DNA of 64,000 nt from Stentor roeselii (taxonomy: Eukaryota; Ciliophora; Heterotrichea; Heterotrichida; Stentoridae). Below, one piece after another: positions 1 to 18,188 of the stretch; position 1 is the stretch's first letter; each line of letters begins with the position of its first letter. The stretch covers positions 62,001 through 126,000 of the forward strand of contig RSEH01000078.1 of assembly GCA_006503475.1 (NCBI GenBank), in the 5' to 3' direction. The notes under the pieces were generated by a model. The model was not told the DNA's origin, did no database searches, and saw only the letters and a list, made by a program, of their open reading frames with translations. The position numbers were made by a program, and so were the translations under genes.

Positions 1-575
1 AGTTAATTCAAAGTGTCCTTCGAAATATTCGACATATCAGCCGGAAGCTGCTGATGAAAGCTTTTGTCACTTGGGTTTACGTTACACCTAAAAACAACAA
101 AAAACTTAAAACTTCTAAAGTTTTCGAAAAACCTCCGAAATGCATTTCAAGTCCTGTACCTTTTAAAACTTTTCGCAATGAAGGGTCTCCTCGAGATGTT
201 AGTTTAAGACTTTATAACAAGGCACAAGAAATAGAAAATCATAAAAATGAAATGAGAAAATCGCTTATTCCTGATTATTCTTTTACACCTAAACTTTCAA
301 ACGGTAATCAAAAGTGGCTTACTTCGAAAAGTAGAAAAGAATTTAAAGGAAATTCTGAAGAAGTTGCTATTGTTAGTGGAAGTAAAGTTTTAGGTTTTAG
401 TCAGATTGAAAGTGAGTTTAAAGGTCTTTCAACGTCGAAAATTCCTGGATTGCCTTTAGGAAAAACGAGAGTTGTGACTAGTAGACTTGACAGAAGAAGT
501 GATATTATTTCAGCAATCTTTGAAAGACCTGAGAACTTGAAGGGACATCATAAGTCTTCAAGTAAATTTTTGTGA
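1..575 (+). CDS. Hypothetical basic protein with YSFTP motif, 5'-truncated by window edge
   Basis: The frame is open from base 3, so the first ATG at 54 is probably internal and the gene begins before the window. It ends with TGA at 573-575. The visible part is basic and has no named domain. It is a clear paralogue of the minus-strand gene at 27406-28032. Both share a block with an L-F/Y-x-K-A-x-E-x-E helix, RKSL..DYSFTPK, a PKWL/QKWL element and an EE(V/I)AIVSG tail. They also share an upstream AF..W helical segment (LMKAFVTW here, KCKAFYLW there). The W-containing helix faintly resembles centrin-binding helices, but that is only a guess. Function unknown. Confidence 0.8.
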   Translation, partial: LIQSVLRNIRHISRKLLMKAFVTWVYVTPKNNKKLKTSKVFEKPPKCISSPVPFKTFRNEGSPRDVSLRLYNKAQEIENHKNEMRKSLIPDYSFTPKLSNGNQKWLTSKSRKEFKGNSEEVAIVSGSKVLGFSQIESEFKGLSTSKIPGLPLGKTRVVTSRLDRRSDIISAIFERPENLKGHHKSSSKFL

Positions 576-2829: not shown

Positions 2830-3720
2830 TTAGTTCACTTGATTTTTAAAGTCTTTGTCGAAAGACTCGAGAATGTCCTGATTGAAGATTACTGTTAACA
2901 TGAAACGGATTCGTGATGGAAGACTTTGAGTGTTTTCAAGCACGGATATGCGGGAAAGTACTTCTTTAAAGTTGCTTTTTAGACGATAGATCATTTTTCC
3001 TGAGATTTTTATGAGGTTCACTGCTGCTTCGATTGAATCTTCATCTTTTGAACTGGAAAGTAAAGTTTTAAGACAGGTGGATATCGTTGTTTTCGGGATT
3101 ATGTGATGTTTGAACAGTTCTGCAACAAAAGCCATGTTTCCCATGATTCTTTTTTTCAGTATCCCTTCAAACTCTAATCCTTTTCCAAGTTCTTCAAACA
3201 TATTTTGACTCATCAGAAGAAGTTCTGATCGAAAACAATTCTTTTTCCCGTCCTCAGGATTTTTGAACTTTTCAATAAAAAATTCACATAAATCAGCCCA
3301 AAGAGTAAGAATCTTTGTTTCAAGACAGGCTTTTTGGAAGATTTTTTCCACTAAAACCTTTAAATTTCCCTCATTTTCAATTGAAATCAAGTAAAGCTGT
3401 TCTTGCAACTTGATGCGATTTGAAGGTGCAAGTTTATTTAAAAGAGACAAAATTCTACTACTAGTGTTTTCCGATTTATTTTCTAAAGTTTTAGTCCATT
3501 CTTTCGCCTTAAGAAGTAAAGTGGGGTCATAAGTTGGTCTAATAATTCCAGGGTTATGTTTAGGTGATGCTGATGCTTGACTTCTAATAATCCCCCTTCT
3601 CCAGATCCTCACAACAGGTAAAGTTTTAACAAAGCTAAAATCTTCATTTCCCAATTTCAAAATTTCCCAGTTCTGATAAATAATTTTCCCTGCAAGACTG
3701 CCACTTTCCAAGTGTTCCAT
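2830..3720 (-). CDS. MIF4G-domain protein, eIF4G-like
   Basis: A 296-residue protein. After a short N-terminal region ending in a basic RIWRRG segment comes an MIF4G (HEAT-type) domain. It opens with ILSLLNKLAPSNRIKLQEQL (about 87-106), the usual LNKLTPxNFxxL signature, and continues with helices matching the F..KA..E......YA.LC pattern (IFQKACLETKILTLWADLC). In eIF4G this domain binds eIF4A. The protein is far shorter than full eIF4G, so it may be a core eIF4G-like factor or another MIF4G regulator such as a PAIP1 type. The first ATG lies inside a perfect inverted repeat shared with the divergent neighbour, with only 8 bp between the two start codons. Confidence 0.8.
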   Translation of the reverse strand: MEHLESGSLAGKIIYQNWEILKLGNEDFSFVKTLPVVRIWRRGIIRSQASASPKHNPGIIRPTYDPTLLLKAKEWTKTLENKSENTSSRILSLLNKLAPSNRIKLQEQLYLISIENEGNLKVLVEKIFQKACLETKILTLWADLCEFFIEKFKNPEDGKKNCFRSELLLMSQNMFEELGKGLEFEGILKKRIMGNMAFVAELFKHHIIPKTTISTCLKTLLSSSKDEDSIEAAVNLIKISGKMIYRLKSNFKEVLSRISVLENTQSLPSRIRFMLTVIFNQDILESFDKDFKNQVN

Positions 3721-3740
3721 AATTTAATATGGAAAGTGGC
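3700..3740. repeat. 11-bp inverted repeat spanning two divergent start codons
   Basis: GCCACTTTCCA at 3700-3710 is the exact reverse complement of TGGAAAGTGGC at 3730-3740, with a 19-base spacer. The right arm overlaps the ATG at 3729. The left arm lies inside the first codons of the minus-strand gene, whose ATG is at 3718-3720. As a result both proteins begin with Glu-Ser-Gly-containing peptides encoded by the same palindrome. Confidence 0.9.
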
Positions 3741-6239
3741 CTTTCTGCTGAGTTTTTCTCTTTTGTCGAAACCCAAGAAGAAGAGAGTCGTTTGTTTCTG
3801 ACATCAAATAAATCAGAAGACCTGAGCAGTTTAGTTTCAATGGCCATGCAAGAAGAAATTTCAGTAGAAAAACAGTCGAACCATGAAAAAACCTTGCTTT
3901 TTGGAATGGCTCAGTCAGGGCCTGTTGAGATTCATCTTCAGTCGATGAGATATGATGAAATTTGTGCGGTTTCGAAAAGTCTTAAAGCTTTGCCTGAATT
4001 TAAACTGGAAAATTTGGTAAGTCGACGATTTGATTACAGTCTTGTTGAAGAAACATGGTTTTTGGCAAGTTATGTTGTGAATGAAAGGAGAAGTCGACTT
4101 AGTAATATTGTTGCTGCTCTTGAAACTTTCGCTCCTGGAAGACATGTTCCTGTTGAAAGTATTCTTATTGTTTTGGTCAAGGCCATTGAACTTGCTAGTC
4201 AGATTTTTGTCCAGGTTAAAGCGATTGGAGCGATTTATATGGAAAATATATACTTTTGTAATGTGAAAAATGAGTTTCAGGTACTTTTTGAGGTTTTTAC
4301 TGTTGAGTTCTTGCAGAAGAGGTTGAAGTGGGAAAGTATTTATCCGGAAAGGCTGGGGTTTTCTTTTAAAGCGTTTTTTTGGAGTATGGGAGTCATGGCT
4401 TACTCGTGTTTGACTGGTCTAACCACAAAAAATCTTCCAAATTTCGCCTGCATGTCGCTGCCCGAGATAGAAACTCTAATCGAAAAACTCGAATTCATCC
4501 CCGGCCTGACCCATTTAATGAAGAGTTTTTTCGATGGTTCAATAATAGACTTCGATTCAATAATAAAAACCAAGTCATTCCAGACCTGGTCATTCATTCT
4601 AAGCTGTTCATCCAAAGGTCCAGAAAAAATGTGTCCTCATGCATTTTACTCACTTTTTTTCTTCACCAGCAAAAAAGTGATTTACCAGAACCTTCCCTTT
4701 CTCTGCACTTCAGAAGAATTCGTCGAAGAGCTAAACAACGAAATATATAAAAAACATTCAATTCACGATAAAATAATTCAACATCTAACTGAATTTCCTG
4801 ACTTGAATGAAGGAATGTTGGAATTTTCTTTGAACTTTTTGATAAAAATCAAGGCAATTTCTCCTGTTTCTATTCGAAAATCGTGTTTACAGCTGATTTA
4901 TAGAATTATCAAGTTAAAAATCAATCTAGATGATATTAACATGAGGAAATTGCTGATTAAAACACTTGTTTGTCTATTGAATGACAGTACTTTGACTGTT
5001 CAGCTGCTTTTTCAAAATGCAGGGATTTTGTATTGTTTGTATGAGAATTTTCCGAGTGACTCTTCTTCGCTTTTTCCTTTTCTTTCGTCTTTAGGAACTA
5101 AGTCTATTGAACATATCAAGTTTTTTCGTAACAGTAAAAAGTACCAAGACCCGAATGAAACTATGATTTATATTCAGAAGATTCCTATACACTTTAAACT
5201 GCAGATGACTTTTGATATCTTGCAGGAAATGGATGACTTGATGAAAACTTGGGCACCTGCCTTGATTTTTGATAGCAAAAAAATCAACTCTATGCATTTG
5301 GCTGTTACTATTTTGTATGAACTGCTTCAAGCTGCAAAAGAGGCAAAAATCGCGAATCAACTAGGTAAATGTTTTAAAAACATTTTAAGCTATAAAGTCT
5401 CTCCAGTGATGGTTCAATGTTTGAGCTGCAACAAGCAGGTATGTGTAAGTTGCGCTCAATATCACATGGACCTAACACACAAGGTATCCTTTCTAACTCA
5501 CTCAAAGATAGAAAATTCCACCTGTCAAGACGAGAGCCAGAGTCCAAACATGGTGCATCCAACTCGCAGTTCTCTTCCATCATGCGAAGAGATCTATTTC
5601 GAGACTCCAGCGAATGAAAACCAGTCTTATTCCTGGAAAGTTCGAGAAATCATGATGCCGAAGTCACAAACATCAGGAACTTTATTTTATGGAGAAATTT
5701 ACTTTGCTAAATGTGAAAGTGAAGACATTCAAATAGTCCTTCACGGGTCGAAAATTGAATATGATAATAATATTCCTGGAATCGTGAAAAATAATGCTTT
5801 TTATTGCAATGGACCTCGACTAGGCGCCAGTGATACTCTTGGAATAGGAATTACTGGAGATTTTAAAGTGTTCTTCACTTATAACGGGTTTAATTTAGGA
5901 AGGTACATCGAGTTCATTGCGAAAACAATCGTCATTGAAGTGAAAATCGTGTCTTTTTTACCTCCGATTATTAACGGAAATTGTCCATCTTTGTATAACA
6001 TGCAAGCTTTTACCTTTTTGGAAAAGGAAAGATTGAATGACTATAAATGTATTGCGAATATTTTTGTAGTTCTTGTGCTTTTGAGGAAGAAAATCATGAA
6101 AAAATGCATCACTTCTTCTTCGAATCTTTATTCTGTTGTTGATGACTTGAAAAAAATTCTTGATTTCAATGTTTTGAAGAATCGGTTGAAAAAAGACTCA
6201 AGTCATCAAAGTCTAGGACAAGGATGTAAACCATTTTAG
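3729..6239 (+). CDS. Large protein: degenerate kinase-like region, zinc finger and SPRY domain
   Basis: 836 residues. Residues about 100-290 show a kinase C-lobe-like pattern (LSNIVAALETF, VLVKAIELASQIF, FFWSMGVMAYSCLTGL), but no HRD or DFG catalytic motifs can be seen, so this is at best a pseudokinase. A long helical, armadillo-like middle follows. Near residue 560 is a small Cys/His cluster (CLSCNKQVCVSCAQYHMDLTHK) resembling a B-box or ZZ-type zinc finger. A SPRY-like domain then runs from about 650 to 770, with the hallmark DTLGIGITGDFKVFFTYNGFNLG. SPRY domains bind peptides and often mark ubiquitin-ligase adaptors. The N-terminal domain call is inferred from the sequence pattern only. 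It starts 8 bp from the divergent MIF4G gene. Confidence 0.7.
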   Translation: MESGLSAEFFSFVETQEEESRLFLTSNKSEDLSSLVSMAMQEEISVEKQSNHEKTLLFGMAQSGPVEIHLQSMRYDEICAVSKSLKALPEFKLENLVSRRFDYSLVEETWFLASYVVNERRSRLSNIVAALETFAPGRHVPVESILIVLVKAIELASQIFVQVKAIGAIYMENIYFCNVKNEFQVLFEVFTVEFLQKRLKWESIYPERLGFSFKAFFWSMGVMAYSCLTGLTTKNLPNFACMSLPEIETLIEKLEFIPGLTHLMKSFFDGSIIDFDSIIKTKSFQTWSFILSCSSKGPEKMCPHAFYSLFFFTSKKVIYQNLPFLCTSEEFVEELNNEIYKKHSIHDKIIQHLTEFPDLNEGMLEFSLNFLIKIKAISPVSIRKSCLQLIYRIIKLKINLDDINMRKLLIKTLVCLLNDSTLTVQLLFQNAGILYCLYENFPSDSSSLFPFLSSLGTKSIEHIKFFRNSKKYQDPNETMIYIQKIPIHFKLQMTFDILQEMDDLMKTWAPALIFDSKKINSMHLAVTILYELLQAAKEAKIANQLGKCFKNILSYKVSPVMVQCLSCNKQVCVSCAQYHMDLTHKVSFLTHSKIENSTCQDESQSPNMVHPTRSSLPSCEEIYFETPANENQSYSWKVREIMMPKSQTSGTLFYGEIYFAKCESEDIQIVLHGSKIEYDNNIPGIVKNNAFYCNGPRLGASDTLGIGITGDFKVFFTYNGFNLGRYIEFIAKTIVIEVKIVSFLPPIINGNCPSLYNMQAFTFLEKERLNDYKCIANIFVVLVLLRKKIMKKCITSSSNLYSVVDDLKKILDFNVLKNRLKKDSSHQSLGQGCKPF

Positions 6240-6427
6240 AAACTAATTATTGGTAAAATAACAGGAAATTAATCCCAACCTTCATTTTCAAGAGAATACC
6301 CAGGGTGAATAATGGTATTCTTACCATTTAAGCAGATAGTCTAAACAAAAGACCCGTTCATCTCAATCCTAGATTTTCCGAATCTTTCATATATTTCAAC
6401 TTTCTTCTAACAAATAATTATTTCTGA

Positions 6428-7927
6428 ATGTAAAAATCAGTTAGGTCATCCGTCTTGGAAGCGACCAAAGACTCCACCCAACGTCCATTAAACACAATAG
6501 GAAACTACAGTCTCGGGAAAACAATAGGAGAAGGAACCTTCGGGAAAGTAAAACTCGGTATCCACATGCAGACCCAAGAAAGGGTAGCGATAAAGATCCT
6601 AGAAAAAGACCGAATCTGTGACGTATCAGACATCGAGCGAGTATCACGTGAGATCCATATACTTAAATTAATTCGTCATCCTGATATTATCCAGTTATAT
6701 GAAGTAAGCCCTACACAGATCATAGAAACTCCAAAGAAACTTTATCTTATCATGGAATACGCCAGTGGAGGAGAACTCTTTGAATATATCGTCAAACATA
6801 AAAAAATCAGGGAAAAAGAAGCTTGCAAGTTCTTTCAACAACTTGTTGCAGGGGTCGAGTATATCAGTAAACTTAATGTCGTTCATAGGGACTTGAAACC
6901 GGAAAATTTACTGCTTGATCATAAAATGAATATCAAAATTGTTGACTTTGGACTTAGTAATACTTATAAAACTGGAGAAACTTTAAAGACTGCTTGTGGA
7001 AGTCCTTGCTATGCGGCACCTGAAATGATTGCTGGGAAAAAGTATGAAGGGTTGAAAGCTGATTTGTGGAGTTGTGGGGTTATTTTGTTTGCTATGGTTT
7101 GTGGGTATTTGCCTTTTGAAGACTCGAATACGAATACTTTGTATAAGAAAATACTTGCTGGAGACTATCAATTCCCAAAGTTCATATCACCCGAGGCCAA
7201 AGAATTAATAAAAGGCGTCCTAAACACAAACCCTGACTGCCGTTTCGGAATCGATCAAATCCGAAGCCACCCATGGTTTTCCCTAATAAAAGAAGAGATC
7301 CAGCCAGGTATCCTAATCGGTTACGACCACATAATGGTTGACCTTGAAATATTAAAGCAACTTCAAAGTTACGGGTACAACTTAGACTACACTAAAAAGT
7401 GTTTAGAAGCCAACAAGCACAACGACGTAACAACCGCTTATTACCTCCTTCTAAAAAAATACATCCAAAGCGGCGGGGTTTCAGTCGCCGACTACGGCTA
7501 CCGCCCAGACCCGCCCCTTCTTCTTCCTCAATCCCCTCAAGAGACTTACACTCCAATAATCCCAGTTCGCCGAAAGATGCTAAAAGGCTCTCGAAGGACT
7601 GGCTCCATGGCCTCTACTTACAAAGACTCAGATCTCAGCTTTCGCCTCACTCAAGACTTGAAGTCCACTCGAAACACTTCTCAAAAGGTGCCAAAACATC
7701 GAAAGTCCTCTGAATCTCCTCCGACTAAACCGAAACGAGAAGCGAATTCTGGACTTCGACTGTTGTTTAAAAAGTCGTCAACACCCAGACCGCCGAGCCT
7801 TCAACGCCCCGGCGCGAAGCACCGGGGAAAGACTCCAGGAATGAAGGACTTGGAACTGGCTCCGATAGCGAGACACAGTCCGAAGATATCTCAAGAAGGA
7901 AAAATGAGATTTAAGCCGTATTATTAG
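6428..7927 (+). CDS. AMPK/SNF1-type serine/threonine kinase, start codon split by a 15-nt intron
   Basis: The spliced product is 494 residues, beginning M-S-S-V-L-E-A-T-K. A-T (6428-6429) joins G (6445) after removal of the intron at 6430-6444. No other in-frame ATG precedes the kinase domain. The domain (about 20-275) has GEGTFGKV, the VAIKIL lysine, HRDLKPEN, DFGLSN and an AMPK-type activation loop (LKTACGSPCYAAPE). It is followed by a UBA-like helical domain (about 295-345) typical of the SNF1/MARK branch. The remaining C-terminus is basic, Ser/Thr/Pro-rich and probably unstructured. A role as a CaMK-group, AMPK-like regulatory kinase follows from the family. All catalytic residues are intact. 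Confidence 0.9.
6430..6444 (+). other. 15-nt intron inside the initiation codon
   Basis: GTAAAAATCAGTTAG, with A at position 10 and terminal TAG. In unspliced RNA the reading is ATG-TAA, an immediate stop. Splicing gives ATG TCA TCC GTC TTG GAA and opens the kinase frame. Confidence 0.85.
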
Positions 7928-8010
7928 ATTGTATTTAGATGAATAAGGTTTTTTTGAAGATTTTTAATGAAATTTGTGATTGGTTTTAAAAGAAGAGTTA
8001 ATTATTGAAG

Positions 8011-8475
8011 CTAGAGTTTTATTTTGGAGTATTTTAAACGCTTGAGAAGTGAGATTGACTCTTTTTGCTTTGAGGAACATATAAAATCGTGGAAGTTCAT
8101 ATTGTGTGATGTTGTTATGTTCAAGTCTACTCCTGTTCCCAGGTCTGCTATTATTTCAACTGCGTCGAGGTTGCCTTTTGATAGTGCCAAAAATATTGGA
8201 GGACAGCCTGAATTATCTAAAGCGTTTACATTTGCATCACGTTCTAGTAAATATAAAATCACTTGTTTTCCACCATATTCTGCAGCAATGTGCAAAGCAG
8301 TTCTTCCCATAAAAGAAGGCATGTGATAGTTCACATTGAATTTACCTGGGATCAAATCAGTAACTGCTTCTAAATCATTTCTTTTAATTGCAGCATAAAG
8401 TTCGAACTGGAATTTTTTGCTGTTGGCTCTGATGATGGATGACTTTTCATCAATCCGACTTTCGCAGCATCCCAT
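8011..8475 (-). CDS. Small ankyrin-repeat protein, predicted N-myristoylated/palmitoylated
   Basis: The start chosen is the ATG at 8475, giving M-G-C-C-E-S. This is an excellent N-myristoylation signal with two adjacent cysteines for palmitoylation. An upstream in-frame ATG at 8532 would bury that signal. The 154-residue product has three ankyrin-like units from about residue 25 to 125, with GRTALHIAAEYGGKQVILYLLERDANVNALDNSG the clearest stretch (split across two repeats). Ankyrin repeats mediate protein binding; the lipid signal suggests membrane attachment. It is divergent from the next gene, which also begins M-G, with 100 bp between starts. Confidence 0.85.
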   Translation of the reverse strand: MGCCESRIDEKSSIIRANSKKFQFELYAAIKRNDLEAVTDLIPGKFNVNYHMPSFMGRTALHIAAEYGGKQVILYLLERDANVNALDNSGCPPIFLALSKGNLDAVEIIADLGTGVDLNITTSHNMNFHDFICSSKQKESISLLKRLKYSKIKL

Positions 8476-8575
8476 AATAAAAATATATCCACCTTTAATA
8501 ATTAGTAAGCTTTTAATCAATTTACGCCTCAAAAGACAAATTTAATACTTTTGCCAAATATACTTTGACATTATA

Positions 8576-9025
8576 ATGGGAGAATACTTAAGTAAAACTT
8601 GCTGCACTGACAAAGGTACTTTAGTGACTTACGAAAATATCACTTCTCGAATTAATTCACCTGTCAACTTCGAGTTCCAAAGAATAATTCTTGAAATTCC
8701 TGACAATAAACAAAAAGTGCTTGAACAGTTGGATGAATGTCAAACTCCTGACTCGAAACCGAAGATGATAAGGAGAACTATTTCAGGAATCACTGAAATT
8801 AAAACAGATAGCAACTTTACAAGGGGACTTAAGAGAAGCTTGACACTCAAGGGCAAGGAAAATTTTTTGAGGAAGGCGAAGAGGAGACTGTCGTCTATTA
8901 GGTTTGATAGTGATGAAACTCCTAGGGTTAAGGCTGAAGAAAATGCTTTCAGGGGAAGGGTCAGTGAATTTGATGACTGGCATATTGATATTCCTGATGG
9001 AGATATTGATTGTGATTTGGAATAA
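8576..9025 (+). CDS. Hypothetical small protein with possible N-terminal acylation signal
   Basis: 149 residues beginning M-G-E-Y-L-S-K-T-C-C, compatible with N-myristoylation and nearby palmitoylation. The rest is charged, with a basic middle (RGLKRSLTLKGKENFLRKAKRR) and an acidic C-terminus ending in DGDIDCDLE. No recognised domain. It is divergent from the acylated ankyrin gene, so the pair may share a promoter and a membrane location. That is inference from signals only. Confidence 0.65.
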   Translation: MGEYLSKTCCTDKGTLVTYENITSRINSPVNFEFQRIILEIPDNKQKVLEQLDECQTPDSKPKMIRRTISGITEIKTDSNFTRGLKRSLTLKGKENFLRKAKRRLSSIRFDSDETPRVKAEENAFRGRVSEFDDWHIDIPDGDIDCDLE

Positions 9026-9430
9026 TGTATGTTATTGAATTAATAACTTTGGATATTTATGGTTTTTTGGTGGCTTGGAGATTTTTATTTAAGGGTATTA
9101 AGATATTGATAAAAAGGAAGGTAATTTAAGAAATATTTAAAATTTAAGTCTTGTTGAGGTTCTTATGTATGGATATTTAATTACCTAGATAGATTGCATA
9201 CTTCGAAAAAACTCATCAAATTAAATTTCAAAGTCTTACTTACATGAAGAAAAATTTACTTGCTGATATATAATTTATTATAAATTATACCAAATAAATA
9301 TCCTAAAAACCTATAATAGTGAAAATCCCTTAATTAAACCCTTTCTCTATACACTTAAAAATACTCCAAAAATTTTTCGTATCCTACAACTAATTAAACA
9401 AAATATTCTACTTCCATGGCCTTCTAAGAA
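9026..9430. other. Intergenic region between convergent genes
   Basis: 405 bases with no supported gene. The left half is G/T-rich and the right half A/C-rich on the plus strand, switching near 9175. No tRNA, repeat or conserved motif was recognised. Confidence 0.6.
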
Positions 9431-10369
9431 TTAAGTTAAATTTAATAAAAGAATAAAGCAAACAGCTAACGAAACCAAAAAATACTTGATAAGAACATCC
9501 TTAGAAGCTTGCTCGAAGCTTTCATTATAAACAGCCAGGCTAATATTCGCACTCTTAATAGCCTGAACTTCTTTTTTTAAACTCTCATTTTCACTAATCA
9601 GCAAATTTTTCTTCCTTTTTAATTCCTGAAGTTTGGCAGTTTTGGAAGATTTCTGATAATACTCGCTGATTGAATCATCTTCAGTCTCAGCATTTGATGA
9701 GCAGTATTTGTCAAGTCTTACACTAGTTTTCGGTGCAAATGAAGGAATAAAAAGCCCTTCGGAGTCGTTTTTTTTGATTAAGATTTTTGGTTGGGGGCTT
9801 GGGGAAATTTTGGGGATTTTGATGATATTGTCAGTGAGTGATGAAATCAACTTGCTAAGTCTGTCGGACTCTTCATTTAAAGCTTTTTGTTGAGCCTTTA
9901 AAGTATTTAGTTCCTGGTCTAATTTGGGCGATTTCTGTTTTTCTTTAGCAGAACGATCCTCCAGGTCTGATTTTGTTTTTTTCAAAGAGATGATAGATAG
10001 TTTTAGTTCTTCTGATTGTTTGTAAAGCATGTCTTTTTGTTGCAAAGCATGTGTTGTTGACCCGTGTTTACTTTCAATCCTTCTTTTGATCGACTCTAGT
10101 TCACAAACATAATCATCGACCTTCCTTTCATTGTTTCGCAAGTAGTCTTTAAACCTCTCTTGAGTTGATACTTGATTACTTTTCGAATCAGAGCGTTTTT
10201 TGGAAAGATCTGTAATCAGACTGAGGACTTGAGACTTGAAAAAATAGTCTTTTTTACACTCTGCAGATATTTTCAAGGTGTTAGCTATTTCTTTCTGTTT
10301 AAGGTAGATGTTTTCATTCAGATCTTGCAGCTCCTTCTTCATCTCACTCACCGATTCATGCCCCTCCAT
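9431..10369 (-). CDS. Coiled-coil protein with C-terminal membrane anchor
   Basis: 312 residues. Residues 1-180 and 245-285 are heptad-like, Lys/Glu/Leu-rich coiled coil. A short Pro/Ser linker (ISPSPQPKI) separates them. The last about 20 residues (KYFLVSLAVCFILLLNLT) are hydrophobic and end the protein, fitting a tail-anchored membrane protein in the ER or outer mitochondrial membrane. The ATG at 10369 uses the last base of the upstream gene's TAA. A second Met at residue 10 is an alternative start. No family recognised. It could be a golgin/tether-like protein, but nothing specific shows this. Confidence 0.7.
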   Translation of the reverse strand: MEGHESVSEMKKELQDLNENIYLKQKEIANTLKISAECKKDYFFKSQVLSLITDLSKKRSDSKSNQVSTQERFKDYLRNNERKVDDYVCELESIKRRIESKHGSTTHALQQKDMLYKQSEELKLSIISLKKTKSDLEDRSAKEKQKSPKLDQELNTLKAQQKALNEESDRLSKLISSLTDNIIKIPKISPSPQPKILIKKNDSEGLFIPSFAPKTSVRLDKYCSSNAETEDDSISEYYQKSSKTAKLQELKRKKNLLISENESLKKEVQAIKSANISLAVYNESFEQASKDVLIKYFLVSLAVCFILLLNLT

Positions 10370-11244
10370 TATATAAACATTTTCTTATACCTAAAAAAAA
10401 CTATGAAAAGAAAAACAAGGCCGACAGGAATCAACTTTTTCAATCTTCTGAAAGTTTCTAACATCAGAGGTCTTCGAACAATTAGAACTTTTGGAAGATT
10501 TGAGTCGATTTTCAAACTTTGTTTCACAGTTTCACGAAATTTGTTCAACCAGAATGGAACCTCGTCTTGAGTCACTTTTGTGGATTGGACTGGAGATTTT
10601 ATTGAAGTGTAGTTTTTGGATAAGGCTTTTAGGAAAGTCTCTCCGGTCTCGGTGGAATGTTGATTTGATGAATGGATTTTATAGGATGATAAAATTTCTT
10701 CGTTGTTTGAGGACTGGCTTATGTGTTTTTCTATTATTGTCGTGTTTTTTATTATTTCGTAGGAGGTTGAGTATAGAGTGTAGCTTGGAAGGTGTCTTAA
10801 GCGAAGCAGAACTTGGGTTTTTATGAGAGTTATTTGAGATGTCAACTTGTTTTTTAAGAACCTGGCTGTTTTTTCTTTGATTTTTAAAGGGTTTGAATGT
10901 TTTGATTGATCTTGAAGGATGGATTTTTGTTTAAGGTTTAGAAAATCTTCGTAAAATTCAGGATTTTTTAAGGGTTTTAGGGTTTCTTGATATTTTTTAA
11001 TGTCGCTGGGTATAAGGGAGAGATTTTCTTGAATTGATAAGCGGCTTCTTTTGATCCTTTGTAGGACTATCAAAAGAGTGCATTTCATTGACGATCTGAC
11101 ATGAAATAACAAACTTTTAAACAGTGGTATTGGGGTTATAGACAGATTTAGACTTGAAAATGACTTATATAGCAGTAGATCTACTTTAAATTTTAAGAGA
11201 TAACATATTCTCTTAGTTGCACTTTGTTTTAGATTTGTTTCCAT
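10369..11244 (-). CDS. Hypothetical basic helical protein with C-terminal hydrophobic segment
   Basis: 291 residues, strongly basic, with many Leu-rich amphipathic segments. It ends in LIPVGLVFLFIVFFRYKKMFI, a plausible tail anchor with a short basic lumenal end. Its TAA stop (10371-10369) overlaps the ATG of the following gene as TAATG. The downstream frame is -1 relative to this one, so the two could be one protein if a frameshift or a one-base assembly error exists. Each half, however, ends in its own membrane segment, which favours two genes. Function unknown. Confidence 0.6.
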   Translation of the reverse strand: METNLKQSATKRICYLLKFKVDLLLYKSFSSLNLSITPIPLFKSLLFHVRSSMKCTLLIVLQRIKRSRLSIQENLSLIPSDIKKYQETLKPLKNPEFYEDFLNLKQKSILQDQSKHSNPLKIKEKTARFLKNKLTSQITLIKTQVLLRLRHLPSYTLYSTSYEIIKNTTIIEKHISQSSNNEEILSSYKIHSSNQHSTETGETFLKALSKNYTSIKSPVQSTKVTQDEVPFWLNKFRETVKQSLKIDSNLPKVLIVRRPLMLETFRRLKKLIPVGLVFLFIVFFRYKKMFI

Positions 11245-11362
11245 TGAGAATATTATTATATACTAATAATAATGATTAAACTTAAGGTTCTTTCACTAGT
11301 AACTCGAAAATGCTTGCATATTGTGATATTGAATAAATTTATAACTAAAATTAAGTCTATAA

Positions 11363-12178
11363 ATGGATAATATAGATTTTATTATAGTTAACTCTGTCTC
11401 AAATCTATTCAGTGCGTTATGTAGCTTGATTTTCATAATACTAGTTGTTTTTTCAAAGAATTTAAACTGCAACTTTTATATGAGATTGGTCACAGTCTTA
11501 CAGTTCTATACTATGGGAAAAGGCCTAATAGATCCTATTCCTTTAAGATTAATTTTACCAAATCATGATTCTATTTGCTATATCCAATTATTTTTCAGTA
11601 ACTTTTTCTTGAATGGTTGGTTGCTATGGATTAATCTAATATCATTTTATATATATAAAAGAATGTTTTTGAATCAATCAATAGATTGCATTAATATAAA
11701 AAAAACATTCTTTATATTGAACCTAATCAGTATCTCTTTATCAATTCCTGAGACTATATTAGATAAACTTAAAAGCTCTAATTTATATTGTGATTATGAA
11801 ACTAAATGTAAATTATTCGAGTTTTTAGTTTTCAGATTTCTGGCCACATATTTTTTTGTTTTTTTAACCTTTATCATCAATTTATTTCTGTTTTACAGAA
11901 TATCTATGAAATCTAAAAAAATTTTGAATAAAGTGAATGATCCTTTACTATCAAGGTTAAGAATCTACCCTTATATTTTTGTTTTTGCATTTATTCCAAA
12001 GTTTATTATGAGAATATTAGAACTATATCGAATGTCTTCATCATTATTTTACATAATATGCTATAGTCTCACAAATTTATCAGGTTTTTTTAACTTGATC
12101 GTCCTTGGAATAACAAAGGAGTTTAAAAAAGCATTATTCTTCAAAATAGGAAAAGAGATTCCCTTGATTGACCTATAA
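11363..12178 (+). CDS. Seven-transmembrane receptor-like protein
   Basis: 271 residues with seven hydrophobic segments: about 10-32, 40-60, 70-98, 110-130, 150-178, 198-220 and 226-250. There is a Cys at the start of segment 3 (ICYIQLF) and paired Cys in the following extracellular loop (CDYETKC), as in many G-protein-coupled receptors. The last segment reads LTNLSGFFNLIVLGIT, like the TM7 of the cAMP-receptor/class E group (LQGFxNxxVYG). No long N- or C-terminal tails. The gene is more AT-rich in codon choice than its neighbours. A GPCR-like assignment rests on topology and TM7 pattern; ligand unknown. Confidence 0.7.
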   Translation: MDNIDFIIVNSVSNLFSALCSLIFIILVVFSKNLNCNFYMRLVTVLQFYTMGKGLIDPIPLRLILPNHDSICYIQLFFSNFFLNGWLLWINLISFYIYKRMFLNQSIDCINIKKTFFILNLISISLSIPETILDKLKSSNLYCDYETKCKLFEFLVFRFLATYFFVFLTFIINLFLFYRISMKSKKILNKVNDPLLSRLRIYPYIFVFAFIPKFIMRILELYRMSSSLFYIICYSLTNLSGFFNLIVLGITKEFKKALFFKIGKEIPLIDL

Positions 12179-12453
12179 AGTTAAATCTTATTTAGTAAAT
12201 CTTTGATAACTGTGTGTTGAACATACTTGTTCTTCTTTTAAAATCCTTTCAATCTGCATATTTTTCTTAATTGTAATCTAAGAGTAAAGAATTGGTTCTT
12301 GCTATAGATAATTCATGTTCTGTGTCGTTAGTGTCTTCAAGTTAGGTAATGTAGATTACTCTCTTGATATAATATGCTGATCCAATCGCTTCAACTACTT
12401 ATCTGCAATAGATTAATATAAAACTTCCATCCTATTTTACTTTTTGATAAAAC

Positions 12454-12963
12454 ATGCAAACTTCCCTCATTTCAAACGCTTTACAACAGGTAGAAACCCA
12501 AGTGAATCAAATCTTAACCTCCCTTCTCTCATACGAAGAATCCAAGCTTCACTCCCACGACGAGCAAATCCAATCCCTAGACCATGATCTCTCTGAGCTA
12601 GATTCCAAAATCTCAAAACTAAAATCAGAACTTGAATCCTACTCCCAAAAATCTGAATCACCCAATTCCGACCAAATTCATCTTCTCTCAAGACTAGTCT
12701 CTCACTACGAGTCAAATCTGGGTCTTAAAATCATCAAAATATCTCCATTCACATTCGACTTTATTTTTTCTCACATAACCGAGTACCCAAGCGAGAACCG
12801 AGTACGGCTTCATAAGTCTTCATCTTCCCTCTACACAGTTTCCGAATGTATTCCTAGCCTTCCAGACCTTTCCCTGCATGTGTCAAGTCTGAACAGTAGT
12901 AAAAACATTTCAACTTTCATAAAATCTCTGCGTCGTTCATTTAAATCATTTTATTCTTCCTAA
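12454..12963 (+). CDS. SPC25: Kinetochore protein Spc25, Ndc80 complex subunit
   Basis: 169 residues with the expected two-part layout. Residues about 15-65 form coiled coil (DEQIQSLDHDLSELDSKISK). A small globular RWD-type domain follows, beginning LGLKIIKISPFTFDFIF. This parallels the metazoan LGLEIRKI....LQFIFTNI and ends with an ISTFIKSLRRSF element equivalent to FSAFLANVRKAF. Spc25 pairs with Spc24 to dock the Ndc80 complex onto the inner kinetochore. It is shorter than the human protein (224), mainly in the coil. Its stop codon directly abuts the stop of the convergent EIPR1 gene. Confidence 0.8.
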   Translation: MQTSLISNALQQVETQVNQILTSLLSYEESKLHSHDEQIQSLDHDLSELDSKISKLKSELESYSQKSESPNSDQIHLLSRLVSHYESNLGLKIIKISPFTFDFIFSHITEYPSENRVRLHKSSSSLYTVSECIPSLPDLSLHVSSLNSSKNISTFIKSLRRSFKSFYSS

Positions 12964-13943
12964 CTACAGTAAAATCTTGTATTTCTCTTCACTTGGCACT
13001 GCTGAAACTAAGACTTTACCGTCGTAGCTCACGCTTGCGAAATGCCAGGCTTCTCCTGATAACCAGGTACAAGCGTAAACTGAGTCTTCGAAGTTGTCAA
13101 CGCGTGATACTAGCTGGTCACTTTCTTTTTCGAAGAAAGTCTCGTCGCATGGAGCTGAACTTGCGGAAACTACTCGGTGAAGGGCTACTGAATTGTCGGA
13201 ACTTGATGAAAGAACTAGCTGGTCGTGGAATGAGTTGAATTTTACTTGGAATACGAAGTGAGAGTGAATGTCTATTGTTTTTAAACAGGATTGTTTTCGC
13301 ATATCCCAGAATTTTATCAGGTAGTCTTTACTACAGCTCGCGATATGATAAGGATAATTTGGGTTAAAATCCAAGTCTAAGACTTTATCGCCATGTGCCG
13401 GTGAAATCAAGTACCTAGTAGACTTCTCCCTAGTATCATGGATGACTAGATCATTCCCAGAAGCCAAGGCCAATAAAAACTTGTGATTAGGGTCAACTTT
13501 TACTGCAGAAAATTCATTTCCTAAGTGAATTGATGTAGAGGCAAGCGAATTAGGATCGATTTGAAATACTTCTGAGCAAGTTGTAAAGTAAATTTTTTCA
13601 TCCCAACAAAGACTTGTAGGTCTTGAGGCTGTTTGAACAGTAAACTTATTGCTCCAATCTTGTCCATAAGTCCCAATAGAAACATCAGTTTTACTAGCAA
13701 GTGCAATATCACGAGAAATCGGATTATTTCCAGTTAAAAGCCAAACCTCTTCTTGCATATCAAAGCTTTGAATGATATCAATTGACAAGTTATCATCATC
13801 ATACTTTAAAACCTGCAACTTATTCAAAGAATTGAGACTTTGAGTTCCAAGAACCAGTTCATTATCAGGTCCAGCAATGAGCGTTCTGCACTATTTACCA
13901 TTACCCTGTACTCCTCCGAGATCCTCAAAGAAATTTCTTGCAT
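12964..13943 (-). CDS. EIPR1: EARP/GARP-interacting WD-repeat protein EIPR1 (TSSC1)
   Basis: A WD40 propeller that binds EARP/GARP tethering complexes in endosomal recycling and dense-core vesicle traffic. Recognised from the N-terminal LVLGTQSLNS element, LDFNPNYPYHIASCSKDYLIKFWDMR, and the C-terminal EDSVYACTW..ASVSYDGKVL..VPSEEKYKILL, all close to animal EIPR1. Exon 1 is ATG at 13943 to 13905 (M-Q-E-I-S-L-R-I-S-E-E-Y-R). A 14-nt gap with GT..AG ends (13891-13904) must be removed, because an in-frame TAG lies just before exon 2 at 13890. A 14-nt intron is one base shorter than the others seen here; a missing base in the assembly is the alternative. Confidence 0.88.
13891..13904 (-). other. 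Candidate 14-nt intron in EIPR1
   Basis: GTAATGGTAAATAG on the minus strand: GT start, AG end and A at position 10, as in the 15-nt introns, but one base short. Removing it joins the ATG exon to the conserved propeller frame. Confidence 0.55.
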
Positions 13944-13956
13944 ATTATAAGATTAA

Positions 13957-14730
13957 TCATTTAGACTTCTTTAACAATCCCTCTCTTCTAGCAACAGCAG
14001 GGTCTCGACACAAAGGCAGCTGTTTGACATAACTTGCCCTAAATGTCGTTCCAAACTGATTCGGGTTATAAACAGTCGGTATATAAGCGTCAGGCTCTCT
14101 TTTATTGTAAACCACGAGATAGTCATTCACTGCTCCAGTGTACTCTCTTTGAGAAGTACTCATCAAAGGAGCTTCAAAAAAACCTTTGATCTCGTCAACT
14201 GACTTCTGAATTTTACAGTTATTGCCTTGACTTGCTTTCATTGAAAAGTCTTGTGAATAAGAGGATTTTGAATGGAACTTCATTTTAGTCTCGTGAATTG
14301 GGTGCACTGGTCGCTTGTTGTGTGTAAATGAAACTGGACCCCAGTTTGGGTAGTCTCGGGAATATTGGGAATTTCCTTTGAATTTGAATGTTGGCTGAGG
14401 AGTTGAGGACCTTTCTGGGTTTTTAACTTCGGAAGATTTTGCAGTGAATTCTTTTTTGTAGGTCGTTTTTAAGTCCATCTTCGTTTTGGTTGATTTGTAT
14501 GATGATGATACTCGGTGAGGAATTGTCGATACTGAAGGCTTGGAATAGGATCGCTTGTAACTGCTTTTGAAACAGGTTTTGAAGACTCGAGGCTTTGAGG
14601 ATGATGGGCAGATGTGCTGCCCACAGGTACACATGAAACAAATGCAACGGTTTAGAGAATGGTAGGACTCTGGGATTAGGTCGACTTCTAAGGATGAGAC
14701 TGGACAAGTATTATCATTTTGTGTAGTCAT
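13957..14730 (-). CDS. SAXO-family axonemal microtubule stabiliser
   Basis: 257 residues. The N-terminal Cys signature CICFMCTCGQHICP (29-42) is diagnostic of SAXO/FAM154 proteins. Irregular Mn-type modules follow, each with an S-x-Y/F-x-x-(D/E)(Y/F) core (SSYKSTKTKMDLKTTYKKEF, GNSQYSRDYPNW, SSYSQDF, TSQREYTG) and a C-terminal NPNQFGTTFRASYVK. SAXO proteins bind along ciliary and centriolar microtubules and stabilise them. It lies 13 bp upstream of EIPR1 on the same strand and is divergent from the gene at 14986. Confidence 0.88.
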   Translation of the reverse strand: MTTQNDNTCPVSSLEVDLIPESYHSLNRCICFMCTCGQHICPSSSKPRVFKTCFKSSYKRSYSKPSVSTIPHRVSSSYKSTKTKMDLKTTYKKEFTAKSSEVKNPERSSTPQPTFKFKGNSQYSRDYPNWGPVSFTHNKRPVHPIHETKMKFHSKSSYSQDFSMKASQGNNCKIQKSVDEIKGFFEAPLMSTSQREYTGAVNDYLVVYNKREPDAYIPTVYNPNQFGTTFRASYVKQLPLCRDPAVARREGLLKKSK

Positions 14731-14985
14731 TTCTTATAGGAATTTAATCAGTTATAAAATATTTCTCTTTCGATTCTATGAAAAAATGAAAAAAACCTCC
14801 TAAAAACAAAAAATTCAAACTAAAAAATCCTTCATCACCCATAAAACCCTAAAATCCATCATAAACAAACAATTCCAAAAACATCTTATTAATCATCCAA
14901 ACTTACAACTCCTCAATTCCCCTAAAACCAAAATATTTTCATCTTTTCACTCACAAATTCCCTAATAAATAATCCACCTTTCCAG

Positions 14986-15621
14986 ATGCAAAAAATCGAA
15001 AAACTCTCAACCTTGATCCGAGAACCATCAGAAAAACCTAAAAACACTGGCCCTAGATATCTTCCAACACTCGCAACAAATATTCGAGGTGAGGTCAAAG
15101 TGAAAAAGCCGAACACCAGAGGAAAACTTTCATCGCTTTCTAATAAAAATTCAAAGTTGCGTCGATACCCCGGCCTCGAAGACAGTCATGCGAAAATCCT
15201 TGAAAACAAGTCGAAACTTAACTTTTCATTGAAAAACTACTCAATCAACAAAACAGGTCGCTCAGTTTTTAGTATTTATGCAGGAATTCCTTATCTTAAA
15301 GAACTCAGATATGCGCGAAAACAGGATTCTAGTCTTTATACCTCACCCAAGAAATTTCATAGTGATACTATTAATCTTAGCAGGAATGTCAAGAGCTTTA
15401 ATGGAACTTTGTATGATAAGGAGGAAAGTGTGAAGATTAAAATAAGGAAAATCGATCATGAGATTAAATTTCTGGAAAGCAAGTTAGAAGAATTTATGAT
15501 TAGCTGCCAATTAGCGGGGGCTTTAATCGGTTACATAGACGATGTCGACGAAATAACCATAAAAAACGTGGTAAAGATCCAAAAGTGGTTCAGAAAAAAG
15601 CTAGAAGTCCCAAAGAAATAA
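14986..15621 (+). CDS. Hypothetical basic protein with C-terminal IQ-like helix
   Basis: 211 residues, highly basic at the N-terminus (RGEVKVKKPNTRGKLSSL). The C-terminal quarter is helical with a coiled segment (KIRKIDHEIKFLESKLEEF) and ends in ITIKNVVKIQKWFRKKL. That resembles an incomplete IQ calmodulin-binding motif. No family recognised. It sits between a SAXO gene and a CDPK gene, 60 bp upstream of the latter on the same strand. Confidence 0.65.
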   Translation: MQKIEKLSTLIREPSEKPKNTGPRYLPTLATNIRGEVKVKKPNTRGKLSSLSNKNSKLRRYPGLEDSHAKILENKSKLNFSLKNYSINKTGRSVFSIYAGIPYLKELRYARKQDSSLYTSPKKFHSDTINLSRNVKSFNGTLYDKEESVKIKIRKIDHEIKFLESKLEEFMISCQLAGALIGYIDDVDEITIKNVVKIQKWFRKKLEVPKK

Positions 15622-15681
15622 CTGTATAAACTTTTCTCGTTGATTCCATAATTCATAAAGTTGTAAACAGCTAATATCATA

Positions 15682-17085
15682 ATGGACCTGATAATCACTC
15701 AAGGCTCTTTCGTATTTGAAAGAGAGGGTAAATTGCGAGACACTTACCAAATCGGCAACAAAATCGGAGAAGGTTCTTATTCAAGTGTGAGACGAATAAA
15801 GCATCGACAAACGAATGAAAAACGAGCAGTGAAGACAATCCACAAAAAATACATCAGTAACGAGCTTGAAAGACAAGCAGTGATGACTGAAGTTTCGCTT
15901 TTGAAGAGTGTTGACCATCCGAACATCATCAGGTTGCATGAATTTTACCAGGATGAGAAAAATTATTATATTATCACTGAGTATTGTTCTGGAGGGGAAC
16001 TATTTGAAAGAGTCATTCGACTTAGAAGCCTCTCTGAAAATCAGGCTGCTACTTATATGCAACAAATTTTTTCTGTACTTGTTTATTTGCATGATCGTAA
16101 TATTGTTCATCGAGACTTGAAACCTGAAAATTTGATGATGAGTAGTAATGGACATGATGCTAGGCTTAAACTTATTGATTTTGGGTCTGCTTATGTTAGT
16201 CCTAAGGGCTCGTTCATGACCGAAGAAGTTGGTACAGCCTACTACATGGCTCCAGAAGTTCTAAAACATCAATACAACGAAAAATGTGATTTATGGGGTG
16301 CAGGTGTAATCCTCTACATCCTTCTCTGCGGTTTTCCTCCCTTTTCCGGTAACAGCGACAGAGAAATTCTCCAAAAAGTATCAATCGGGCGAGTATCATT
16401 CCCTTCACCCGAATGGGATTCAGTGAGTTTCGAAGCAAAAGACCTAATCCAGCAGCTTCTAACCCAAAACGTGTCTCACCGTCCTTCCGCAAGAGAAGCA
16501 CTTTGCCACACCTGGCTAAGCAACGCGAGTCGTTTAATCCTCGACTCTCAATACGCGAGTCCTCTTCTGACAAACCTTCAAAACTTCAGAAGTCATCAAA
16601 AACTAAAAAAAGCGATTTTGGGTTTCATCAGTGCTCAACTGACGACGACTTTAGAAAGAGAAGAACTGACAAATCTTTTTAAGTCACTTGATGTTGATTT
16701 GAATGGAAGTTTAAGTAAAAGAGAATTGAAGAGAGGGTTTGTTAAGGTCTTTGGCGATCAGATTGAAGACGTTGATGGAGAAATTGAAGGGATTATGAAA
16801 AATGTGGATTTGAATAAATCTGGAGAAATTGATTATTCTGAGTTTATTTCAGCAGTTATTGATAGGCAACAACTACTCTCAAGACAAAGGCTTGATTTGG
16901 CTTTTGAGTCTTTTGACTTGGATAGAAGCGGAACTATTGATGCTCATGAACTCAAAGCGGTACTTGGAAGGTATCATAGGTATGATGATGGATTTTGGAT
17001 TGAACTTATACAGGAATGTGATTTGAATGGAGATGGAGTTATTGATATCTCGGAGTTTACTAGGATGATGCTTAACTCTCTGTAG
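15682..17085 (+). CDS. Calcium-dependent protein kinase (CDPK) with four EF-hands
   Basis: 467 residues. The kinase domain (about 22-282) has GEGSYSSV, the AVKTI lysine, HRDLKPEN, DFGSA and GTAYYMAPE. A junction segment follows, then four EF-hands with loops DVDLNGSLSKRE, DLNKSGEIDYSE, DLDRSGTIDAHE and DLNGDGVIDISE. Each has acidic position 1 and Glu at position 12. This is the plant/alveolate CDPK architecture, activated when Ca2+ binding releases the junction from the catalytic cleft. The N-terminus MDLIITQ has no Gly2, so it is not predicted to be myristoylated. No frame breaks. Confidence 0.95.
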   Translation: MDLIITQGSFVFEREGKLRDTYQIGNKIGEGSYSSVRRIKHRQTNEKRAVKTIHKKYISNELERQAVMTEVSLLKSVDHPNIIRLHEFYQDEKNYYIITEYCSGGELFERVIRLRSLSENQAATYMQQIFSVLVYLHDRNIVHRDLKPENLMMSSNGHDARLKLIDFGSAYVSPKGSFMTEEVGTAYYMAPEVLKHQYNEKCDLWGAGVILYILLCGFPPFSGNSDREILQKVSIGRVSFPSPEWDSVSFEAKDLIQQLLTQNVSHRPSAREALCHTWLSNASRLILDSQYASPLLTNLQNFRSHQKLKKAILGFISAQLTTTLEREELTNLFKSLDVDLNGSLSKRELKRGFVKVFGDQIEDVDGEIEGIMKNVDLNKSGEIDYSEFISAVIDRQQLLSRQRLDLAFESFDLDRSGTIDAHELKAVLGRYHRYDDGFWIELIQECDLNGDGVIDISEFTRMMLNSL

Positions 17086-17326
17086 ATTTTTAAGATTTAT
17101 GGATTGTTTATGGGGAAGTAGGGAAGGGCTTGTCATTTTTTATAAGCACCTTCAAGCTAACTAAGAGATTAATAAAACCAACCCTAATCCTTACCTTCAA
17201 AAACCTCAAAAAAATCCTTAAACATTCTAAACCTTCTCCCATTTTCCTAAAATCCATCCACAATTACCCCTTTAAAAAATACCCTTAACCAAGCCTTCTT
17301 AACCAAAAATATTAATTGAATATAAC

Positions 17327-17968
17327 ATGAACCCAAGTCAATTTCCCCAAATAGTAGTAAACTTTACCTAGTTCAACCTAACCCTAGAAGACATCGAAAA
17401 CAACTTAAAAAAATCCTCAAATTCCGACCCCTTCGAAAACCTCGACGAATTTCTAAAAAAAGCTAAAAAAAGCGATTCTTCTGCCTTTGTTTCAGTTCAC
17501 TTTTCAGCACCTTCTCCAAAGCAAATCCCGAAAGAACTTCCAGAACTGGCCGATGCGAGTTGGAACTTGAATTTCGATTCAAATTTTTTATCTCCTTGCA
17601 AGTCTCCAGCAAAGCGAAGATCATCGAATTCTTCAAATTTTCGCTTTGGGTTGTTTCCACTGGAGTCAATAGAAGAGAACATAAATGAAGACTTGTTGAT
17701 CAGCGGTGAGTTTAAATCAACTTTCAATCAAACATCTCAGCAGATAAGTCCAGGTAGCGACCAGACTCAATGTTTATACTCGCAAGAGAAAAAGGTGAAG
17801 TCAATAGAGAACCCTTCAACCCGTACTCGAATAAACAGTAAACAAAAGAAGTTCCGTTCACCTTATTCAGAAGGAATTTCGCCTAACCGTCTTCCATCAA
17901 TAAAAAAATCAGACCAAACAATGAAAATTCTTAAAAGTTTCACCTTGTCCAAGAAAAGGAAAAATTAG
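17327..17968 (+). CDS. Hypothetical Ser-rich protein, one 15-nt intron
   Basis: ATG at 17327. The intron at 17357-17371 contains the only in-frame stop; after its removal the product is 208 residues. The sequence is Ser/Lys/Asn-rich and apparently unstructured: an acidic N-terminal helix (LTLEDIENNLKK), a central SPCKSPAKRRSSNSSNF segment and a basic C-terminus (SFTLSKKRKN). Proline-directed sites suggest phosphorylation. No domain recognised. A small membrane-protein gene follows after 19 bp. Confidence 0.75.
17357..17371 (+). other. 15-nt intron
   Basis: GTAAACTTTACCTAG carries an in-frame TAG at its end. Removing exactly 15 bases joins two coding-like segments in frame. GTAAA and TTTAC within it are perfect inverted repeats. 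Confidence 0.85.
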
Positions 17969-17987
17969 TATGTAACTCTTAATAAAG

Positions 17988-18188
17988 ATGAATAGAATGA
18001 CTAAAGTGAATCATAATCATCTAGTCGTTGGGCTCTCGATTTATCTTTTGACTTCTGCTTTTATCACTTGGTCTAATGAAAAGATTTTAGTTGAAAGTAT
18101 CAATGCAGAGCTTCAGCTAAGAGCGAAAAAGATTCATGAAAAACTCATCGAGGACTATGAAAAAGTGATGCAAGGCAATAATAAATAA
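17988..18188 (+). CDS. Small single-pass membrane protein
   Basis: 66 residues: a short basic N-terminus, one hydrophobic span (LVVGLSIYLLTSAFITW, about 12-28), then an amphipathic charged helix (ESINAELQLRAKKIHEKLIEDYEKVM). Size and layout resemble small mitochondrial inner-membrane or respiratory-complex accessory subunits, but no family is recognised. Its stop directly abuts the stop of the convergent M16C gene. Confidence 0.6.
   Translation: MNRMTKVNHNHLVVGLSIYLLTSAFITWSNEKILVESINAELQLRAKKIHEKLIEDYEKVMQGNNK

Follow-up and report, generated by a model that had tools for sequence, protein, structure and literature searches.

The stretch of DNA described here, referred to below as the window, covers 64,000 nucleotides of contig RSEH01000078.1 (C503:62001-126000) of the heterotrich ciliate Stentor roeselii, whose assembled genome has 44.4 Mb in 522 contigs. 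The forward strand of the window alternates between blocks in which G exceeds C and blocks in which C exceeds G. The reversal of the skew every few hundred bases is real and strong, and it ignores the strand of the genes. The unit of the alternation looks like a local mirror-image footprint, G-rich in its left arm and C-rich in its right arm, with the two arms meeting at a G-to-C centre.

Open reading frames (ORFs) were called with the standard code and all three stops; among 147 ORFs of at least 150 amino acids (aa), 82 end in TAA, 46 in TAG and 19 in TGA. A Pfam scan of eight window ORFs recognized phenylalanyl-tRNA synthetase, two protein kinases (one with EF hands), TOG domains and a Tectonic domain. 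Searches for tRNAs and Rfam families gave no match within the window, and tiny introns of the form GTA..TAG, with lengths of 11 to 30, showed no clear excess. The features needed for the argument are given below in window coordinates, none of them assigned to a strand. Block limits are from a hidden Markov model (HMM) with two states and reverse-complement symmetry, which was blind to the block list of a preliminary description of this DNA; the z values of the centres are from a matched filter.

3894-4418: left G-rich arm of an intragenic footprint in the 836-aa ORF 3729-6239 (HMM); skew +0.36 over 3940-4430
4418-4419: G-to-C centre inside the same ORF; z = 5.2, C503:66418
4419-4789: right C-rich arm of the footprint centred at 4418 (HMM); skew -0.30 over 4430-4790
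4790-5454: weak G-rich block to the left of the intragenic switch 5454/5455 (HMM); skew +0.06 over 4800-5340
5455-5680: C-rich block (HMM)
5681-6188: G-rich block ending near the 3' end of ORF 3729-6239 (HMM); skew +0.18 over 5690-6230
6189-6842: C-rich block, comprising the spacer after 6239 and the start of a kinase ORF (6455 TTG, 6566 ATG) (HMM; ORF limits)
6843-7118: G-rich block within the kinase ORF (HMM); 36 G and 9 C at 7021-7140
7119-7904: C-rich block, remainder of the kinase ORF (HMM); skew -0.25 over 7150-7620
8823-9196: G-rich left arm of a spacer-centred footprint (HMM); skew +0.54 over 8810-9170
9026-9430: AT-rich spacer flanked by convergent ORFs (+ -), containing a strong centre at 9175; z = 7.1, C503:71175, gap 149..256
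9197-9605: C-rich right arm of the footprint centred at 9175 (HMM)
14731-14985: spacer flanked by divergent ORFs (- +), containing a strong centre at 14764; z = 7.5, C503:76764
17086-18188: gap flanked by convergent ORFs, containing a strong centre at 17133; z = 7.9, C503:79133
30955-30956: intragenic centre in the TOG-domain ORF 28073-34030 (Pfam TOG); z = 5.2, C503:92955
40003-40713: spacer flanked by tandem ORFs (+ +), containing a strong centre at 40247; z = 7.1, C503:102247, gap 244..467

The analysed DNA amounts to 299 kb (0.67% of 44.4 Mb) and consists of the whole of C503 (169 kb), 70 kb of a second contig, C50, and 10 kb from the start of each of six others. ORFs of at least 100 aa were used in the gap, centre, regression, arm-composition and model-fit analyses, those of at least 120 aa in the comparison of gene strand with skew state, and those of at least 150 aa in the codon shuffles, the anatomy of the switches and the sites of the local-skew and neighbour-context analyses. 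GC-skew power at the same scale was found in eight contigs. At 400 bp, G-C has 6.4 times the variance expected of independent bases, and for C503 the two-state HMM is better than a one-state model by 1154 nats, with G-state frequencies of A 0.289, C 0.139, G 0.211 and T 0.361. Nine short rows of tandem repeats were found, none of which resembles the skew pattern.

The preliminary description had listed five G-rich and five C-rich blocks, and the GC skew has the sign given there in all ten, three of them being weak (4800-5340, +0.06; 5350-5650, -0.09; 6360-6640, -0.10). The accompanying AT skew, T over A in G-rich blocks and A over T in C-rich ones, was recovered in all five of the former and in four of the latter. 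Its four hand counts are exact (36 G and 9 C at 7021-7140; 9 G and 15 C at 7381-7440; 10 G and 21 C at 16441-16500; 6 G and 19 C at 31021-31080), and the flip that it placed near 30957 in the TOG gene is matched by the centre at 30955. The HMM places switches at 4418/4419, 4789/4790, 5454/5455, 5680/5681, 6188/6189, 6842/6843, 7118/7119 and 9196/9197; of the listed C-rich block at 3100-3700 it recovers only 3580-3893. It had also held that the switches cut through reading frames and alter the choice of synonymous codons, and had proposed that autocorrelation be compared with codon shuffles and third codon positions with the first two. The autocorrelation of third positions in the 147 ORFs departs from that of 40 synonymous shuffles by z = 25.2 at lags of 3-33 bp and by z = -12.8 at lags of 453-501 bp, which bears the statement out; codon positions 1 and 2 carry the same signal more weakly. 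The negative lobe is absent from the control, one 50-kb stretch of Escherichia coli.

The G-rich state lies on the coding strand in 50.5% of ORF bases, and 129 of 183 HMM switches fall inside ORFs, the expected number being 131.1. The skew is therefore blind to gene strand, as had been claimed, but the sharp G-to-C switches favour spacers. The pattern is not set by gene orientation and is explained in part by spacer position.

The two kinds of switch differ in shape and in surroundings. The G-to-C switch is the sharp one, the normalised third moment of skew steps being -0.31 ± 0.07 at 200 bp. Near 141 G-to-C switches the ORF fraction is as low as 0.44 and GC as low as 0.31, compared with an ORF fraction of 0.78-0.80 near 140 C-to-G switches. 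Within blocks longer than 1 kb (1-6 kb), the skew is 0.2-0.35 in the 300-400 bp next to the G-to-C end and mostly 0.02-0.1 thereafter. The median spacing of centres is 1501 bp (113 spacings). Two adjacent minus-strand ORFs of the sampled DNA (L016:1982-4207 and 4283-6478) are near-identical around a C-to-G switch at 0.16 of each ORF; they are an apparent tandem duplicate in which the skew profile has been retained.

A fixed full cycle of 0.9-1 kb, with a corresponding peak in the autocorrelation, had been suggested for the window, and it does not hold over the 299 kb, where the autocorrelation is 0.001 at 940 bp. What the 299 kb do contain is a negative lobe at 340-760 bp, reaching -0.067 at 460 bp (telegraph null 0.016 ± 0.008, 60 simulations), and small positive values of up to 0.018 (z about 2) at 2.0-2.3 kb. 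The window alone gives +0.035 at 900-940 bp (about 2 standard errors), its first 50 kb give +0.073 at 1000 bp, and in ORFs of 2.1 kb or more (20 interiors) z is -6.3 at 501-603 bp and +3.3 at 801-903 bp. Long genes may contain some regular spacing; strict periodicity is unsupported over 299 kb despite these weak positives. The HMM block lengths are widely spread (coefficient of variation 0.87). Among models of the autocorrelation, random odd footprints with a mean arm of 350 bp gave chi = 74 over 98 lags, alternating gamma blocks 224 and a random telegraph 496, values that serve for ranking only because the lags are correlated; the telegraph and the alternating-renewal blocks were set aside for their poorer fit. 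Two centres about 1 kb apart would produce alternating arms and hence the impression of a period. The best explanation of the alternation is the overlap of many local strand-asymmetric mutation footprints with fixed centres.

The location of the centres was examined with the matched filter (z floor 3.2), which gave 150 G-to-C centres and 131 C-to-G points before, and 126 and 87 after, a value above 1 was required on both sides. Non-ORF DNA holds 60 of the 126 two-sided G-to-C centres and 16 of the 87 C-to-G points, the baseline being 0.324. An early test on gaps of up to 300 bp, with medians of 21-62 bp, had given weak effects; the 60-bp limit and the size classes used thereafter were chosen after the strongest centres had been found in larger gaps. 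With D defined as the skew to the left minus that to the right of the gap midpoint, and with gaps longer than 900 bp or within 800 bp of a piece end left out, a positive D was obtained for 68 of the 83 gaps measuring 60-900 bp (tandem 43/51, convergent 11/13, divergent 14/19) and for 26 of 49 gaps shorter than 60 bp. In a regression on 85 spacers of 60-1000 bp, longer gaps being omitted, G-C is lowered by about 0.06 per base at 100-300 bp to the right, an effect gone by about 800 bp. The regression has an R2 of 0.052, whereas 200 random placements gave at most 0.0087. Divergent, convergent and tandem spacers each exceed their own null maximum, the divergent ones barely (0.0130 vs 0.0122), and 53 gaps shorter than 60 bp stay within the null (0.0085 vs 0.0121). 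Centres thus prefer AT-rich spacers of at least 60 bp, whatever the orientation of the flanking genes. When 63 intragenic centres were placed relative to the nearest spacer midpoint, 11 lay within 200 bp, against an expectation of 4.0; the range of 200-400 bp contained none where 8.6 were expected, and 26 lay beyond 1.6 kb, the expected number being 18.4.

The composition of the arms was determined at fourfold sites and by distance from ORF edges, a measure that is independent of the skew and so not circular. On the strand running 5' to 3' toward a spacer, the frequencies within 200 bp are C 0.10-0.12, T 0.39-0.41, G 0.18-0.19 and A 0.30-0.32 (in narrower figures, C 0.103-0.117 and G 0.181-0.186); at 600-900 bp they are C 0.155-0.178, T 0.32-0.37, G 0.12-0.15 (more narrowly 0.121-0.146) and A 0.35-0.38, and beyond 1.2 kb C 0.142, T 0.354, G 0.132 and A 0.373. 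C reaches a minimum of 0.061 where the local skew is strongest. The asymmetry is a mirror image, with C and A depleted on the strand running toward the centre, and from this composition, the mutations being unpolarised, we infer changes mainly from C to T and from A to G on that strand. Loss of the whole uracil-DNA glycosylase family was considered as a cause and rejected, as the genome has one match to the family. APOBEC-like families gave no match in the genome, nor did they in the control genomes, which makes the negative no evidence of absence.

Our preferred reading, held tentatively and at somewhat less than even confidence, is that the alternation consists of overlapping mirror-image scars of recurrent, probably meiotic, breaks at fixed sites. 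The centres would be places of recurrent double-strand breaks, most likely those made by Spo11 in meiosis, and would lie in spacers poor in nucleosomes as well as at certain positions within genes. Resection from 5' to 3' would leave the 3'-ended strand single, which is the forward strand to the left of the break and the reverse strand to the right. If this exposed strand were damaged, or copied with errors, and the changes were inherited, an excess of G and T would build up on the left and of C and A on the right, as in the observed arms. The sign of the footprints, the length of their tracts and their indifference to gene direction all match resected double-strand breaks. The tract is finite and of the order of resection (300-400 bp of high skew; fitted mean arm 350 bp), and centres are enriched in AT-rich, perhaps accessible, intergenic DNA (60/126 against 32%), with the other 66 in ORFs. 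The genome contains a Spo11/TopoVI-A-like ORF with TP6A_N and TOP6A-Spo11 Toprim domains and encodes DMC1 and RAD51, with scores above the equivalog cut-offs. These predicted genes make meiotic breaks possible and are not proof that breaks made the pattern.

The closest known counterpart is the human meiotic hotspot. In the part of the human study drawn on here (PMC7615360), hotspot flanks show C>N and A>N changes on the forward strand, the exposed single strand, to the left of the break, and resection tracts extend 1-2 kb per side. Human hotspots and the present footprints share mirror-image asymmetry about a centre, its sign and a limited tract; the human data, so far as that part of the study goes, concern new and rare variants within 2 kb of PRDM9 sites, whereas the pattern described here is one of standing composition, centred on spacers, with the breaks unmapped (PMC7615360).

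Several points weigh against the break reading. Its basis is the sign, shape and place of the footprints. The arms, a few hundred bases long, are shorter than human tracts, and the same portion of the human study describes the central 100 bp as free of asymmetry and places off-centre peaks at 700-800 bp (PMC7615360). The best matches of the Spo11 candidate among solved structures are archaeal topoisomerase VI A subunits, with the meiosis-specific SPO11 third of five. Inside ORFs lie 66 of the 126 G-to-C centres, without an AT dip, and for the placement of this half, approximately, spacers give no account. Divergent gaps of 400-900 bp are weak, with D positive in 4 of 7, and of an estimated explainable R2 of 0.467, spacers of one common strength give about 11%, roughly a ninth. 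ORF calling was plain and intronless. The third moment of intragenic steps taken alone is -0.31 ± 0.16, about 2 standard errors, and the E. coli stretch has third moments, for which no errors were computed, of +0.035, -0.012 and -0.164 at 150, 200 and 300 bp. In blocks longer than 1 kb the skew rises again to 0.15-0.19 at the far end; the HMM inflates skew at both block ends, and the informative part is the excess at the G-to-C end. Fourfold GC near spacers is 0.27-0.32 with no trend and so gives no sign of GC-biased gene conversion, a common though not universal mark of hotspots, and the neighbour context, which is confounded, shows no clean deaminase signature.

Among other explanations, the strongest is pervasive short non-coding transcription, for instance bidirectional transcription in the germline during meiosis, which would start anywhere and end at AT-rich spacers, so that beside each spacer transcription would on balance head toward it, with the non-template strand gaining G and T. 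It would yield the same sign on both sides of a spacer, free of promoters and regardless of gene strand, with transcript length setting the scale, and gene 3' ends by themselves fit ordinary transcription-coupled asymmetry, since the coding strand is G-rich there. At 5' ends and divergent spacers, both of which share the sign, such transcription would have to run counter to the gene, and it would need terminators within genes to account for the intragenic centres; transcription outward from spacers would be expected to give the opposite sign. A sign that follows the gene strand, as in transcription-coupled asymmetry, was not found (50.5%; the same sign at divergent, convergent and tandem spacers). 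We regard this explanation as unlikely.

Rather less probable is programmed genome rearrangement, with centres at germline-only inserts (internal eliminated sequences, IES), breakage sites or joints between germline pieces, and the composition a signal or a relic. Inserts could sit in spacers and in genes alike. Damage caused by excision in the somatic nucleus is, however, not inherited. A PiggyBac-like transposase (PF13843), the sole transposase family searched for, gave no match, and the control genomes were also without one, so that this negative is no evidence of absence. In the parts of the two nanochromosome studies used here, Halteria has GC skew in the 3' subtelomere of the coding strand, alike on both strands and of the same sign as beside a spacer in Stentor (PMC7858049), and Oxytricha has a subtelomeric bias of about 50 bp that is complementary between the two ends (PMC3558436). 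Both biases resemble the present pattern in being local and alike at both ends; they lie at chromosome ends and in Oxytricha span only about 50 bp, whereas the footprints lie inside contigs, span hundreds of bases and reach into coding sequence (PMC3558436, PMC7858049).

As possible causes the preliminary description had named nucleosome arrays, strand-biased repair and the replication of amplified macronuclear DNA; of these, the class of strand-biased damage or repair survives. Nucleosome arrays find no support, as there is no spectral peak at 150-300 bp, and replication from dense origins is disfavoured. Under the latter, to which we give slightly less credence than to rearrangement, each sizeable spacer would be an efficient origin and the skew a leading/lagging asymmetry. 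A sharp switch in spacers with a weaker one in genes is indeed the geometry of origins. Even in blocks of 1-6 kb, however, the skew fades over the first 300-400 bp from the centre, while fork direction should persist to the next origin; apart from the partial rise at the far end, no persistence to mid-replicon was found. The median centre spacing is also far denser than any replicon map we know of. In bacteria, leading/lagging GC skew changes sign at a defined point on the scale of the chromosome, with few switches. The present pattern shares the sign change at a point and differs in its scale of hundreds of bases; the E. coli stretch has no such lobe.

Selection on DNA or mRNA, in the form of codon ramps or of nucleosome-positioning or other signals at gene starts and ends, appears improbable. 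On average, ORFs of 450-2500 bp have a coding strand rich in C at the 5' end and in G at the 3' end, and the strand near gene starts is C-rich also in the CG skew of plant and fungal transcription starts, as presented in the portion of PMC3411245 used here and in works cited there. Unlike the start skew of that account (PMC3411245), the present one is mirrored at gene 3' ends, is not seen at gaps shorter than 60 bp and also occurs within genes. Gene-strand, codon-ramp and gene-end explanations were rejected on the lack of a clear effect at gene ends facing gaps of less than 60 bp; moreover, mean gene-end skew (about 0.1-0.2) is below block skew (about 0.3), and the interiors of the 20 long ORFs alternate as well. 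A statistical or assembly artefact, for which no support was found although switch density does vary from 833 to 2000 bp per switch between pieces, is hardly credible in view of the skew power in eight contigs, the synonymous shuffles, the random-placement nulls and the E. coli control.

Some further features of the sampled DNA were recorded. A cluster of short tandem repeats with G- and T-rich units (window 34046-34154) lies just past the start-codon end of the TOG ORF 28073-34030. About 4.6 kb of the window (46798-51440) have no stop-to-stop frame longer than 94 aa, the rest of the contig being gene-dense, and the adjoining minus-strand frame of 148 aa (51441-51887) has, by eye, C2H2 zinc-finger-like spacing. 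Elsewhere, a 768-aa ORF at C50:37724-40030 (L022 and the first bases of L023) appears by eye to be Piwi/Argonaute-like, and a 1754-aa ORF at C503:8640-13904 (L001-L002), cysteine-rich near its N terminus, resembles by eye ciliate surface proteins. GATC is the most depleted tetranucleotide of the 299 kb (observed/expected 0.67, order-2 model).

We class the pattern with local strand-asymmetric mutagenesis, a known kind. Searches of the open-access literature, most subscription papers lying outside this scope, brought up no description of mirror-image skew occurring genome-wide at the spacers of a protist, and no fine-scale map of germline breaks for this lineage was found. Composition that is mirrored on a scale below a kilobase and blind to gene strand stands outside the usual patterns of replication and transcription. 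Should another process be the cause, the footprints would remain markers of fixed positions of strand-asymmetric mutation, spaced about 1.5 kb apart. With slightly less confidence than we place in the breaks themselves, we suggest that break positions may have been stable for so long that strand-asymmetric mutagenesis sets base composition and synonymous codons wherever sampled, so that the hotspot map and the tract lengths could be read from one genome. If breaks are the cause, a single assembled genome would yield a fine-scale map of germline break sites and their tract lengths, and the pattern would show how far recombination-linked mutation reaches into codon choice.

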